Assembly (NCBI RefSeq): GCF_003019675.1
Contig: NZ_CP028105.1
Span: 62,001-126,000, forward strand
DNA: 64,000 nt
Direction of reading: 5' to 3'
DNA from: Fusobacterium ulcerans
GTDB taxonomy: Bacteria > Fusobacteriota > Fusobacteriia > Fusobacteriales > Fusobacteriaceae
Within the stretch, counting starts at the first letter, position 1, and every line of letters starts with the position of its first letter. The position numbers and the translations under genes were made by a program. This document shows positions 45,661 to 54,460 of this stretch, one piece after another. Below the pieces are notes generated by a model. That model was not told where the DNA came from. It worked only from the letters and a program-made list of their open reading frames with translations, and searched no databases.

Positions 45661-46518
45661 ATGGAGAACAAAAGAAACACAAAGAATCAACCATTCTGCT
45701 GGCAGGAAAAAAAGATACTGCGATTATTGAGATGTCAATATGATGGAAAGGAACATGACAAGCTTAGAAACTTGTATTTAACTCTTACTGAAATCTACAG
45801 TGATTTTAATGGGAGAGATATCAAATACTACACTCAGACAATAGCCAAATACAGTAGTTTAAGCAAGGATTGGATTCCTAAAGGATTAAAAATATTTGAA
45901 AAGTTAAAAGTGATACAGCTGGTGGAGGAAAGAAGCAAGGGAAAGTTTAAAGGGAAAAGATTAATATTCACTCCTGAAAATATCATTCCTGATAAAACCA
46001 TTACTGAATTTTTAGAGCCATCAGAAGATAGTTCTTATTTAGAAGATATTAAAAGAGTAAAAGATATAAATAATACACACACAGGGGAAGAGGAAAAAGT
46101 GAGTGATAATCTAAAACAGGAAAAAGAAAAACTCAGTGATGCACCTATGGAGATACAGGACATATTAAAAAAATATAAGGAGCTGAATCTGCCAGAATAT
46201 AACTATCGCCCAGACAACTATGTACTCTTGGGAGTGTGGAGAGAACTTGGCGCTGTAAAACTTTTTGAAGCACTGACATTGATGTCAAAGTCAGAGTTTG
46301 TTAAAAACAATATGAGCATCAACAGCATATTCAAGATAGAGAACTTAAAGAAAGCCTTGAATGGAAACTTCAAAGACAAAGAAAAAAAGAGCAAAGAGAA
46401 AAAGGAACCTAAGAAAAAATTCGTGAGACCAGTATATGAGGATTCTACAGGGAACTTTATCAAGGAGCTTTTAAATAAAATAGCAAAAGAGGATGGAATT
46501 GAAGATGAAGAAGTGTGA
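45661..46518 (+). CDS. Replication protein, DnaD/replisome-organiser-like
   Basis: A 285-residue protein typical of phage or plasmid replication modules. The N-terminal 110 residues look like a winged helix (LYLTLTEIYSDFNGRD, IAKYSSLSKDWIPKGLKIFEK, VIQLVEERSKG). A charged linker leads to a helical domain (LKKYKELNLPEYNYRPDNYV, about 170-230) and a lysine-rich stretch near 240. It overlaps the DnaC-like gene by 17 bp, an arrangement usual for initiator plus helicase loader. Family assignment is by overall pattern and context. GGAGTGAA supports the ATG. Confidence 0.6.
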   Translation: MENKRNTKNQPFCWQEKKILRLLRCQYDGKEHDKLRNLYLTLTEIYSDFNGRDIKYYTQTIAKYSSLSKDWIPKGLKIFEKLKVIQLVEERSKGKFKGKRLIFTPENIIPDKTITEFLEPSEDSSYLEDIKRVKDINNTHTGEEEKVSDNLKQEKEKLSDAPMEIQDILKKYKELNLPEYNYRPDNYVLLGVWRELGAVKLFEALTLMSKSEFVKNNMSINSIFKIENLKKALNGNFKDKEKKSKEKKEPKKKFVRPVYEDSTGNFIKELLNKIAKEDGIEDEEV

Positions 46519-47311
46519 ATACTGCGGAAAAGAATATGTGAAAAATGAGAGTGATTATCTTAAAAACCTTTCTGAAACTTTTAGAAAAAATTTAGAGTAT
46601 CTTCCAACATGCGACTGTCTGGAAAAGAAAAAAGAAAGAGAACTGGAAGAGTTGGAAAGAAAAAGAACCAGAGAAAATATAGAGAAAAAAATGCAGAAAT
46701 GCAAGGATATCTCTGTAATAGACAAGAAATTTCAAAACAGCAGATTTGAAAATGCTGATATAAAGTGCGAACAAATGCAGCTGGCACAGCAGTATGTAAA
46801 AAGCTTTATGAAAAAAGAGAAGCAGGAAGGGCTGTTGTTCTATGGAGGGGTGGGAACAGGAAAGACTTTCACTACTGCCTGTATAGCAAACTACCTCATG
46901 GAGAGAGGAAAGACAGTACTGGTAATGAATCTGGGGCTGTATCTCAATAAGCTCACAATAGAGTGGGGAGCAGCTGAAAGAGATATTCTGAAGCAGGTGG
47001 AAAAATGCGATCTTCTGGTGATAGATGATTTTGGTGGAGAAAAGGGATTGGATAAAAATCAAACTGGATGGAGAGGAGAAAAAATATATAATCTCATAGA
47101 CGCAAGATACAGAAGTGAAAAACCTTTGATAATATCTACAAATTTGAATTTCAGCAAAGATGAGGAAAAGTGCGAGATAAGCGAGAAGTTTTCAAGTCAT
47201 GGACAGAACAGAATAAGAGACAGGATAATTGACATGTGCTTTCCTGTACAGGTAACAGGGAAGAGCAAAAGAGGGATGACAAAGCAGAAGTTTTTTGAAT
47301 TTATGTATTAA
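46502..47311 (+). CDS. DnaC-like helicase loader ATPase
   Basis: A 269-residue AAA+ ATPase of the DnaC/IstB type. N-terminal zinc-binding cysteines (KCEYCGKEY and CDCLEKK) precede a coiled-coil region. Walker A GGVGTGKTFTTACIANYL is near residue 117, Walker B LLVIDDFGGEK near 175 and sensor-1 KPLIISTNL near 210, with an arginine finger region NRIRDRIIDMC. It would load the replicative helicase at an element origin. The ATG at 46502 is preferred to one nine bases earlier, which has its ribosome site directly abutting. No transposase partner, so IstB is unlikely. Confidence 0.82.
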   Translation, partial: KMKKCEYCGKEYVKNESDYLKNLSETFRKNLEYLPTCDCLEKKKERELEELERKRTRENIEKKMQKCKDISVIDKKFQNSRFENADIKCEQMQLAQQYVKSFMKKEKQEGLLFYGGVGTGKTFTTACIANYLMERGKTVLVMNLGLYLNKLTIEWGAAERDILKQVEKCDLLVIDDFGGEKGLDKNQTGWRGEKIYNLIDARYRSEKPLIISTNLNFSKDEEKCEISEKFSSHGQNRIRDRIIDMCFPVQVTGKSKRGMTKQKFFEFMY

Positions 47312-47333
47312 AACTAAAAAGGGAGACTGATGT

Positions 47334-47573
47334 ATGGAGAGAGAGGAATATATTTTTAAAAAACTTGGAAATCTATCCCCAATGAATAAAACTTTAGCAG
47401 ATGAAATAGTAAAAGAACTGGGAGAGTGGGCAACAATAAACGAGGTGGCAAAGTATTTTAAAAAGCATAGAAATACTATTTACAACAAAGTGGAAGAAGG
47501 AGACATTCTCCACAGAAAAATGGGAACAAGTATTTTAATCTACACAAGGAGCCTGATTTTTTTACTGGAATAA
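47334..47573 (+). CDS. Small helix-turn-helix protein (excisionase-like)
   Basis: A 79-residue DNA-binding protein. WATINEVAKYFKKHRNTIYNKVEEGDILHRKMG is the pattern of a MerR/excisionase-type winged helix: helix-turn-helix followed by a basic wing. It lies 22 bp after the DnaC-like gene, in the same orientation, and is likely to regulate the module or act as an excision factor. GGGAGA precedes the start. It is upstream of the autotransporter and its inverted repeats, so it could also bind there. Confidence 0.72.
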   Translation: MEREEYIFKKLGNLSPMNKTLADEIVKELGEWATINEVAKYFKKHRNTIYNKVEEGDILHRKMGTSILIYTRSLIFLLE

Positions 47574-47820: not shown

Positions 47821-47988
47821 GTTCGCATTTATGTATAAAAGCGAACTTTTTTCTTATACGATTATAATCTTTAAATTTAAAAAAGTCAAGAAAAAATTTG
47901 ATTAAAAAAATAAAGATTAAAAAAATGAGATTAGGAAAATTGCCTAAAGTAAGGCTGTTACTATTCGCTTTTATACATAAATAAGAAC
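47821..47988. repeat. Inverted-repeat segment, candidate invertible promoter
   Basis: ATTTATGTATAAAAGCGAA at 47827-47845 recurs as a perfect 19-bp inverted copy at 47964-47982; extended outward, the arms match at 23 of 25 positions (47821-47845 and 47964-47988). The 118 bp between holds a consensus promoter on the minus strand. A partial third copy, AAAGCGAACT, lies at 47777-47786. The left arm also folds as GTTCGC/GCGAAC plus a T run, a possible plus-strand terminator. The segment ends 58 bp before the autotransporter start. Confidence 0.75.
47861..47889 (-). promoter_or_regulatory. Consensus promoter inside the inverted repeats, facing away from the autotransporter
   Basis: On the minus strand: TTGACT (47884-47889), exactly 17 bp, TATAAT (47861-47866). 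It is among the best sigma-70 matches in the window and reads leftward, with no minus-strand gene to serve. If the segment flipped, it would read into the autotransporter with a leader of about 90 nt. Confidence 0.7.
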
Positions 47989-48045
47989 ACTTATTTTTTT
48001 CTGAACTAAAAAATATAATAAAAATAAAATTAAGGGGAGAGAAAT

Positions 48046-51000
48046 ATGATTAAAGAGCTAATGAAGGAAATAAAAAATAGAAATAAGAAAAAAAGTATCA
48101 ATATAACATTAGGGGTTATCATAGGGTATATCTTAACTGGTGGAATAGTATATTCAGAAGAAATTCCACTGAAAAAGAAAGCAATCTATGATGAAGAAAT
48201 AAAATGGTTGTGGCCATTTGAAAAGGGGAGTGGAAAGAAAAAATTAGGTGAAAACATTAATGGAGAAGAATTACCTCCAGAGCCAGAAGTGATACCACCT
48301 AAAAAAGATGAAATACCATGGGAACATGACCCAGATGGAATAGTAGAAGATGGGTTAGAGCAAGATTCAATAGATATGTATACTGGAATATTAAAAAGAG
48401 AATGGAATAAAGAAGAAAAAAAATGGAAAGTAGTAGGTCTACAAGATGAAAATGGAGATGGAATAGCAGATATATATAATCCAGATGGAGATTTTGATGG
48501 AGATGGGATAGAAAATAAGTATGATAAAAATTGGGCATTGAATGATGGAAAGCAAAATGACCATTTTATATCAAGTAATGGATTAGGATATGTAGATTCT
48601 GGGAATATAATTAAAATATTAAATAAAAATGATTGGAATTCAGATGAAATAAAAAGCCATTTATATAGTGAAGGACAACAGAATTTATATAAAAATGGAA
48701 TGAAAAATTTAGAAGATATAGATATAAAAACTGTTACAAAACTTAACAAGTATAATGAAGAATATAACAAAGAAAATAAAATAGTTAATTCAAGTGATAA
48801 TGTTGGAAATTTTGAAAATAAATTAAAAGAAATAGGGCAGAATAAGCTGGATGAATATAATAATTTTACTGGAGGAGAAGATAATTTATTATTTAATAAC
48901 GTTTTAAATGAAACTACAGAGCAAAACCTAAGAGAAAAGGACAATATACAAACTGTAAATAAAGGAAAGATTAATTTTACAAGAGTTAATCCAGGTCAAT
49001 TAGGAGCTAAGTCAAATAACTTTAAAGCTTATAATTATGGAGAAATAATAGGAAGAATAGATATGGATAGTAGCGGAATACCTGTAAGTAATGATTCAAT
49101 AGGACAGAAAGGAATGGCAGAAAGCAATTATTTATATAATTATGGCTTAATAGATGTAGAAATAAAAAAAGAGGGTGGATATATAGGAAGTGTAGGTCAA
49201 ATAATAGATAACAATATGTCATATTCTAAAAGTATAGATAATGAAATTATAAATTATGGATATATTAAAAGTGTTAATACAGGGGGAGGAGTAGCAACAG
49301 GACAAGATGCATTAGCAATGGATGGATTAAAAATAGCACTGATAAATTCTGGGAAAATATATGCAGAAGTTAACGGAGATAAATCAGGAAGCAATGGACA
49401 GACAATAACAGGACAAGGAGTTCATGGGTCTGCTACAAAATTAAATGGTATTTTAGATATAAATGCAGATATTTATAACTATAATGACATTAAACTAGTA
49501 TTAAAACAAGGAGATGATGGAATCAATCGAACTCATTATTTATATGGACAGAAAGCAACCATAGCATTGGTCCCACCACAAAATGAAACTGCTTATATGA
49601 ATACTCAGTTATATAATTATGGCAATATAAAAATAGAAGATTTAGATGGAAAATTAGGGGAAAGTGGAATTTTATGTGGACAATATGCAGAAACTTTAAA
49701 TCAAGGGGTAGATGCTGAAAATAGAACTGCCCAAAACAATATTTATAATTATGGAAATATAGATATTATTTCTAAAGGAGTGACAATTTCATATGGGCAA
49801 AGAACTTCAATAAAATATAATTCAATAAATATTAAAGAAAATCAATTATATAATTATGGAAAAATTAATATTTTTTCTAATAATAAAAATTATGGACAAA
49901 TTTTAACAACTTGGTCAAGTAAGGAATATTTTAAATCTGATATATATAATTATGGAGTAATAGTTAGTGAAGGAAAAGAAACAATTGGGCAATCAATAAA
50001 AGGATATAAAGGAACTACCAATAACTATGGGCAGATAAGAGTAAAAGGCGAAACACAAGATACAGCAGGAATGAAAATAACAGATGGAGCAAAAGGGTTT
50101 AATTATGGAATAATAGAAGTTGATAATAAAGATCTTACAATTGAAAATATGGGAACAGGAATGTGGGCAGATGGAAAAGATTCAGAGGCATTTAACTATG
50201 GAAGCATTGTAGTTACTGGGTTAACAGGAACTGTTGAAAATGGAATGGATACAGCATATATGAGAGCCACTAATGGAGGGAAAGTATATAATTATGGGTG
50301 GCTTGAATTAAAAGACTCACTAGAGGCATTAACTATTGGTGAGGGAGTGAATTCATCTACTAAAGCAGGCTATAGATCAGCAGGAGATTTTGACCTTAAA
50401 GGTGAAATGAAGATAATGGCAGAAACAGGAAAGGGAGATATCTATTCTAAAGAAAATTTCATTACAGCAGGAGGAAATGGCAAAGAAGGAAATATATCAG
50501 GACTTGAAAATCTTACATCTTCAGGTGTATATGAAATTTCTACAATAGAAAGAAAAGGAGATAATGGAGAAAATGTAATTGACCTTGTAATGAATAAAAC
50601 TAAAAATATAGAAAATTTAGAAAAAGACAGTAATACAAGAAGAATGATAAAAGAGTTAAAACTTGATAATGCTGTATATGGAAAAGATTCAGAATTTGCA
50701 AAGAGCAATAAGGAGTTTTCAGAAATGATATCAAGGAAAGTATCAGAGGGAGAATCACTTGAAAATTTACTTGGGTTTGAATATGCAAATCTTAATGGAC
50801 AAATAGTTGAATCAGGAAAAGTACTGTTGGAAAATCAAGAAAAAGTTATGAATGCAGATAGAACATATCTAAGCGGACAGTTTAATAAGGAAAATAATTT
50901 TGACGCAGTGATAATCAACCCACAAAATGAAAGTAAAATAGGTATATTTCATTTAAATTCAGATAAAGACCTTGACTCGCATGCTTCAGGAACATACAGA

Positions 51001-51836: not shown

Positions 51837-52127
51837 ATGACAGAAGGCGAATTTATAAGATTTTACAAGAAGAGAAATAATTCTAAAAGTCATAAAGAAG
51901 TAAGAGAAAAGATAGACTTATTTTGGAACGTACTACTGAAAGCTTTAGATGAAGATAAAAAAGTAATATTGAAAAACTGGGGAGTTTTTGAGAAAAGAGA
52001 GAGGAAAGTTAGAAAAGTATTAGTTCCAACATGGGAAAAGGCACAATATATTAAACCTAAGGAAATAGTAAAATTCAGAACAGGAAAAAGCCTTATAAAA
52101 ATAGCCAATGGTGATACAGATGAATAA
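51837..52127 (+). CDS. HU/IHF-like DNA-binding protein
   Basis: A 96-residue HU-family histone-like protein, about the usual length. The N-terminal helices read MTEGEFIRFYKKRNNSKSHK and VREKIDLFWNVLLKALDEDKK, followed by the beta hairpin VILKNWGVFEKRERKVRK and the arm region, with IKPKEIVKFRTGKSL at the end. The usual RNP arm motif is altered to VPTWEKAQYIKP. AAGGAG supports the ATG. It sits 100 bp after the autotransporter; two relatives lie downstream. Divergent, so an accessory paralogue. Confidence 0.8.
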   Translation: MTEGEFIRFYKKRNNSKSHKEVREKIDLFWNVLLKALDEDKKVILKNWGVFEKRERKVRKVLVPTWEKAQYIKPKEIVKFRTGKSLIKIANGDTDE

Positions 52128-54080: not shown

Positions 54081-54166
54081 GAATATACTAATAGTATACT
54101 TCATTTTAAGAAAAAAAAGAACCATCTTTAAAAATAAAAATGGAACAAGTAAGGAGGCACACAAAA

Positions 54167-54460
54167 ATGACTGAAAAAGAATTTATGAAAAAATATCTGG
54201 AATCTTTCAAGTTAGATGGAAGACTAAAAAATATAGGTGAAGCTAAAAAAAGAGTAAAAGTTTTTTTTGACACTTTAAAACAGGTTATTGATAAAGATGA
54301 AAAAGTTATTTTTAAAGATTGGGGTAAATTCGAAATAGAGCACAGAGAGCAAAGAACTTATGGTAACCCTAGAACTAAAGAAAGAATAATTATTCCAGCT
54401 AAAAAAGTTTTAAAATTCACAGTTGGAAAGAAATTTGCTGACAGAGTAAAAAACAGTTAA
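54167..54460 (+). CDS. HU/IHF-like DNA-binding protein
   Basis: A 97-residue HU-family protein. MTEKEFMKKYLESFKLDGRL and GEAKKRVKVFFDTLKQVIDK form the helices, and VIFKDWGKFEIEHREQRTYG leads to the arm GNPRTKERIIIPAKKVLKFT, a recognisable form of the RNP-containing arm. The ATG at 54167 is chosen because AAGGAGG lies before it; an earlier in-frame ATG would contain this site. A third relative of the HU genes at 51837 and 52120. It ends in a palindromic terminator. Confidence 0.82.
   Translation: MTEKEFMKKYLESFKLDGRLKNIGEAKKRVKVFFDTLKQVIDKDEKVIFKDWGKFEIEHREQRTYGNPRTKERIIIPAKKVLKFTVGKKFADRVKNS

Follow-up and report, generated by a model that had tools for sequence, protein, structure and literature searches.

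Predicted invertible promoter upstream of an autotransporter-type gene in Fusobacterium ulcerans and its genome-wide family of recombination sites

The window comprises 64,000 nucleotides of Fusobacterium ulcerans (C1:62001-126000, closed genome of 3,537,675 bp) and carries, in front of a gene for a large protein, an intergenic segment bordered by short inverted repeats, as in an inverton (Table 1). These repeats had been reported as 25-bp arms, and re-measurement returned the same values: 47821-47845 and 47964-47988 are identical at 23 of 25 positions, contain a perfect 19-nt core, and lie 118 nt apart. They are recast here as two near-palindromic sites of 26 bp (47821-47846 and 47963-47988) that belong to one genome-wide family, which corrects the 25-bp description. 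Each site consists of a 10-bp arm, a 6-bp core, and a second 10-bp arm (GTTCKC...GMGAAC), and the centers of the two sites are 142 bp apart. The right site is diverged at its outer positions (GTTCTT; A at one end). The predicted promoter TTGACT-17-TATAAT was confirmed within the segment; it matches the consensus at 11 of 12 positions, runs on the minus strand from 47889 to 47861, and points away from the gene, so the assignment of the sequenced orientation to the OFF state stands. In this orientation, its transcript would run antisense to the 79-aa helix-turn-helix (HTH)-like ORF upstream. At the other end, the HU-family gene may be cotranscribed with the controlled gene.

Table 1. Positions of the promoter element, its neighboring genes, and related recombinase genes of genome G028 (window coordinates unless a locus is named)
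Feature	Position	Strand	Remark
Left recombination site, GTTCGCATTT-ATGTAT-AAAAGCGAAC	47821..47846	+	6-bp overlap 47831-47836
Right recombination site, reverse complement GTTCTTATTT-ATGTAT-AAAAGCGAAT	47963..47988	-	6-bp overlap 47973-47978
Invertible segment, 116 bp between sites	47847..47962	.	
Promoter: -35 TTGACT 47889-47884, 17-nt spacer, -10 TATAAT 47866-47861	47861..47889	-	OFF orientation
Ribosome-binding site AGGGGAG, 6 nt 5' of start codon	48033..48039	+	Direct sequence reading
Controlled gene, 1229 aa	48046..51735	+	ORF; autotransporter-type N-terminus, NYG repeats, FKIEYKF end
79-aa HTH-like ORF upstream of the window switch	47334..47573	+	Found again upstream of other switches
HU-family protein gene just 3' of controlled gene	51837..52127	+	
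Diverged L047-type recombinases of G028	L133:10357-10953, L133:12618-13202, L134:10036-11004		

The product of the controlled gene is likely an autotransporter, as judged by its sequence. The preliminary description had called it one, and this designation holds in part: the N-terminal signal region resembles that of the switched autotransporters (approximately 50% identity over 31 residues) and the C-terminal FKIEYKF fits an outer-membrane β-signal, but the autotransporter β-domain of Pfam (PF03797) found no match in the protein. The Asn/Gly-rich NYG repeats are a further feature of the sequence. The structure model of the C-terminus (mean pLDDT 27) is uninformative, and so is the profile comparison.

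Searched with the window element, the genome returns 26 DNA matches to itself. The site pattern GTTCKCNTTTRTRTAWAWANGMGAAC, at up to three mismatches, yields 75 strand-hits in this genome versus 0 for the reversed control pattern, and chance is therefore excluded. Across 98 Fusobacteriota genomes, the family occurs in four only—this genome, G026, G027, and G028—with 75 to 103 strand-hits each; the remaining 94 hold zero or one to two stray matches, which is the control level. The sites assemble into approximately 24 inverted pairs in this genome and 81 across the four, the latter total being based on samples of G026, G027, and G028. A promoter score of at least 10 is reached by 84% of the enclosed segments and by 10% of shuffled segments. 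A plasmid collection contained no match. The site search of a phage collection turned up a single Fusobacterium-like contig, L132 (IMGVR_UViG_2806310933_000001), on which an OFF switch lies together with a DnaC-type gene and the 5' end of an autotransporter-type gene; although filed as viral, this contig probably stems from the chromosome of a related Fusobacterium strain. Two further matches from that collection (L140 and L141) were dismissed as unrelated and due to chance.

Tyrosine recombinases exchange strands over a 6-bp overlap between their binding arms. A pair of such sites consists of arms around an overlap of 6 to 8 bp that is necessarily identical between the partners. The sites of this family have such arms, and the partner-identical overlap maps to positions 11-16. 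In 56 distinct pairs picked by arms and spacing alone, with the core not used, the central 6 nt are the same in inverted orientation in 55; shuffled partners give an expectation of 24% (maximum 48% over 2000 shuffles), and a match in direct orientation occurs in 1.8% of pairs. At the single positions of the core, agreement between partners is 98-100% versus 48-100% by chance, two of the six core positions being invariant in the shuffles too. In the arms, identity between partners is approximately that of chance, with a marginal excess at a handful of positions, 17 and 22 among them. This restriction of identity to the core fits a signature of strand exchange across a 6-bp overlap in the manner of tyrosine recombinases. 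The near-palindromic form of the sites also raised the option of a serine invertase acting on a 2-bp core. This option was dropped: the partners share an overlap of 6 bp, and the genome encodes no small serine recombinase, its only PF00239 match lying in a 504-aa frame, as long as that of a large serine integrase.

The window itself contains neither a tyrosine nor a serine recombinase, as noted earlier: the nearest PF00589 match ends at C1:58926, and the window begins at C1:62001. The enzyme had been expected elsewhere in the genome, where nine tyrosine recombinases are indeed encoded, three of them the size of a catalytic domain (L046, L047, and L048; 189-198 aa). In the site-bearing genomes, the surroundings of the small recombinase genes were searched for inverted repeats; none was convincing, and adjacency therefore cannot pick the enzyme. 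L047 and L048, both of 198 aa and with a mutual identity of 75%, represent a type that, at 73% identity or more, is confined to the four site-bearing genomes among 12 searched in the genus; all four have an intact copy. An enzyme of this type is, with modest confidence, the favored candidate for the window switch. The 189-aa L046 (C1:3006125) is an unlikely yet serious contender. Its catalytic residues are intact, it too has the size of a catalytic domain only, and it is present in all four site-bearing genomes at 91-92% identity, but relatives that lack the sites have orthologs as well, at 58-65%, and the L047/L048 type follows the sites more closely. The wider distribution of L046 could be explained by a divergence of its specificity. 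A recombinase other than these three is improbable.

The L046-type copy of the present genome reads in frame. In the orthologs from relatives resembling Fusobacterium mortiferum (L059-L063), the start—ribosome-binding site, ATG, and MxTR...—is out of frame with the remainder in five of five genomes. The break coincides with a run of approximately 8-10 T near codon 17, and the downstream part is conserved with its catalytic residues intact, which suggests that this recombinase may be slippage-controlled or phase-variable. Diverged L047-type recombinases are found on the smaller, plasmid-sized contigs C2 and C3 of G028 (90 and 68 kb; Table 1), the one on C3 adjoining a resolvase-like ORF, and no sites were found in the regions examined around these genes.

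Past inversion can be read from homologous loci within the family. Loci L037 (C1:284-292 kb) and L038 (C1:909-917 kb) carry their segments in opposite orientation between unchanged flanks, and L042 is likewise opposite to L038 with conserved flanks. Flipping L038 in silico at the site centers restores a near-perfect alignment. L013 and L040 form a second homologous pair with the segment flipped between conserved flanks. A further flip at L084 is the weaker case because its flanks align poorly, and it is kept out of the key evidence. As the flipped loci are paralogs, the proof concerns inversion in the past of the family and not flipping within one culture. In L019, the segment is missing exactly: the outer-left half, the core, and the outer-right half are joined to a single site (L019:3751-3776, C1:2753750) in front of an intact autotransporter gene, and the 170-bp unit is kept in L043 and L044. 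We read this scar as a deletion by the same recombination machinery acting on near-palindromic sites; the alternative is that the empty site arose by another route of loss or is the ancestral state.

At the window locus itself, the switch is preserved in relatives. The controlled gene has orthologs in G028 (L118, 84% identical) and in G027 (L111, 63%), both behind the same kind of switch. The cores differ between these loci—ATGTAT in the window, ATATAT at L118, and ATCTAT at L111—and the partners agree at each. The predicted promoter within the segment is kept in eight related switches from four species, with the -10 and most of the -35 element conserved and much of the other segment sequence diverged. 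The opposite orientation, sought in the related genomes at this locus, was not found: L118, L111, and the paralog L009 are all OFF. The same holds for all copies of the window locus and of its promoter class (-10 approximately 14 nt from the site), among which no flipped copy occurs. Both orientations are present among other members of the family, and OFF alone is present at the window locus.

We consider it very probable that the element is a promoter switch inverted by a small tyrosine recombinase that is encoded elsewhere and likely shared by approximately 24 switches. The earlier reading as an invertible promoter is supported by the site family, the identity of the cores within pairs, the flipped homologs, the excision scar, and the conserved switch with its co-varying core. 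The recombinase would bind the 10-bp arms of both inverted 26-bp sites and exchange strands across the identical overlap ATGTAT, which would invert the 142 bp between the site centers. The sequenced state, with its single strong promoter directed away from the gene of the 1229-aa surface protein, would be OFF; in the inverted state, transcription would start near 47955, approximately 90 nt 5' of the ATG, and the gene would be ON. Present-day flipping of the window switch and its effect on expression are predicted from the sequence. One recombinase most likely operates all of the approximately 24 switches of this genome, which precede autotransporters, polysaccharide genes, O-acyltransferases, and HU genes, and the surface mix would differ from cell to cell.

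Two other readings of the window element were weighed. It could be a genuine member of the family that is now locked as an OFF fossil, which we regard as unlikely: the exclusive observation of OFF copies, the diverged outer positions of the right site, and the locked scar at L019 speak for it, but the core is still identical between the partners and co-varies in the relatives, and the ORF, the promoter, and the ribosome-binding site are intact. Hardly credible is a fixed operator, with the repeats as binding sites of a regulator and the promoter permanently directed outward, for example, for an antisense or small RNA; the common orientation of all orthologs and paralogs of this switch class suits it, but an operator needs no cores that are identical within a pair yet different between loci, homologous switches are flipped, the excision of one segment follows the cores precisely, and no gene recurs as a target on the outward side.

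For the promoter switch, the closest precedents come from other phyla. Bacteroides fragilis has at least 13 invertible promoter regions under the master recombinase Mpi (PMC5903667); the Fusobacterium system is alike in its many promoter switches with one common repeat, its surface-molecule targets, and its proposed control in trans. Mpi is a serine recombinase, whereas the 6-bp overlap and the gene content of the Fusobacterium genome point to a tyrosine recombinase, and the two systems also differ in repeat sequence, phylum, and main targets, which here are autotransporters. In uropathogenic Escherichia coli, the promoter element ipuS drives the autotransporter UpaE and is inverted by FimB-like tyrosine recombinases (PMC6083910). 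This system, like fimS, resembles the one proposed here in that a tyrosine recombinase would invert a promoter element, which in ipuS and here lies in front of an autotransporter-type gene, but the ipuS element spans 260 bp, has 7-bp repeats, and adjoins two of its recombinases, whereas Fusobacterium has approximately 24 copies with 26-bp sites and no adjacent enzyme. In Clostridioides difficile, the tyrosine recombinase RecV acts on several distant switches (PMC5903667), as is proposed here; the seven switches of strain R20291 have mostly unrelated repeats, in contrast to the common arms of all Fusobacterium switches. Also comparable are the inverton groups that Jiang et al. described for Bacteroidota and Akkermansia (according to PMC11892184), in which a promoter close to surface genes is enclosed by short inverted repeats that share a motif. 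The published motifs mentioned in PMC11892184 are from Bacteroidota, Akkermansia, and Firmicutes, and Fusobacterium does not occur in its main text. A search of the open-access literature found no report of such switches in Fusobacterium. We file the system under the multi-locus invertible promoters already known from Bacteroides, Akkermansia, and C. difficile, in a new phylum and with a new site sequence.

The network as a whole is strongly biased toward the OFF state. Of 65 callable switches, 59 have the promoter directed away from the gene and six toward it, as judged by a simple rule (the best consensus promoter, and the largest ORF in the vicinity that has a ribosome-binding site). Many of the switches are recent paralogs, so the counts are not independent. 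For large genes, the ratio is 45 OFF versus 1 ON, which could mean that switches seldom flip under growth conditions or that some of them are locked. In culture, switches of this kind are commonly biased strongly toward OFF. The genome encodes 32 autotransporters with PF03797, approximately 14 of which lie behind a switch by position; the window gene and the gene of L043, which have no Pfam hit, lie behind a switch as well. None of the ten giant autotransporters (open frames of approximately 3,100-3,600 aa) lies behind a switch. Further targets include an MBOAT acyltransferase and a sugar transferase; reading of the sequences adds HU genes, a dTDP-glucose dehydratase-like gene, and genes for an O-antigen-type membrane protein and a chain-length-type protein. 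Somewhat more probably than otherwise, these loci form one inversion regulon in which a single small tyrosine recombinase would randomize approximately 16 autotransporter-type genes together with polysaccharide and O-acylation genes, nearly all of them OFF, such that each cell would display one or few. The locus-specific 6-bp overlaps would favor the right partners, and the near-palindromic sites would occasionally delete a promoter permanently.

Fusobacterium varium Fv113-g1, an isolate from a colitis patient, has 44 autotransporters, only a few of which were singled out as highly expressed (PMC5720691). An OFF-biased network fits this observation, and a common inversion system that is mostly OFF would directly explain it. 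If true, neither genome content nor bulk culture would predict the adhesins displayed by gut Fusobacterium.

Further elements accompany the switches. A phage-replication-like cassette (window 45661-47573; also at L009, L019, L020, L021, L036, L044, and L139) encodes a 276-291-aa protein without a Pfam hit, a DnaC-type ATPase, and the 79-aa HTH-like protein, and many switched autotransporters have this cassette upstream, as though the unit had spread through the genome by copying. HU-family genes (window 51837-52127 and 54140-54460; L013, L015, L016, L017, L040, L047, and L137) often lie beside or inside switched operons and also adjoin the L046 and L047 recombinase genes; their products could be accessory DNA-bending factors. 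At L011:4130-5031, an IS200-like transposase ORF lies within an invertible segment whose sites are 876 bp apart, and at L045:2859-4127, a transposase-like ORF separates a switch from its autotransporter.
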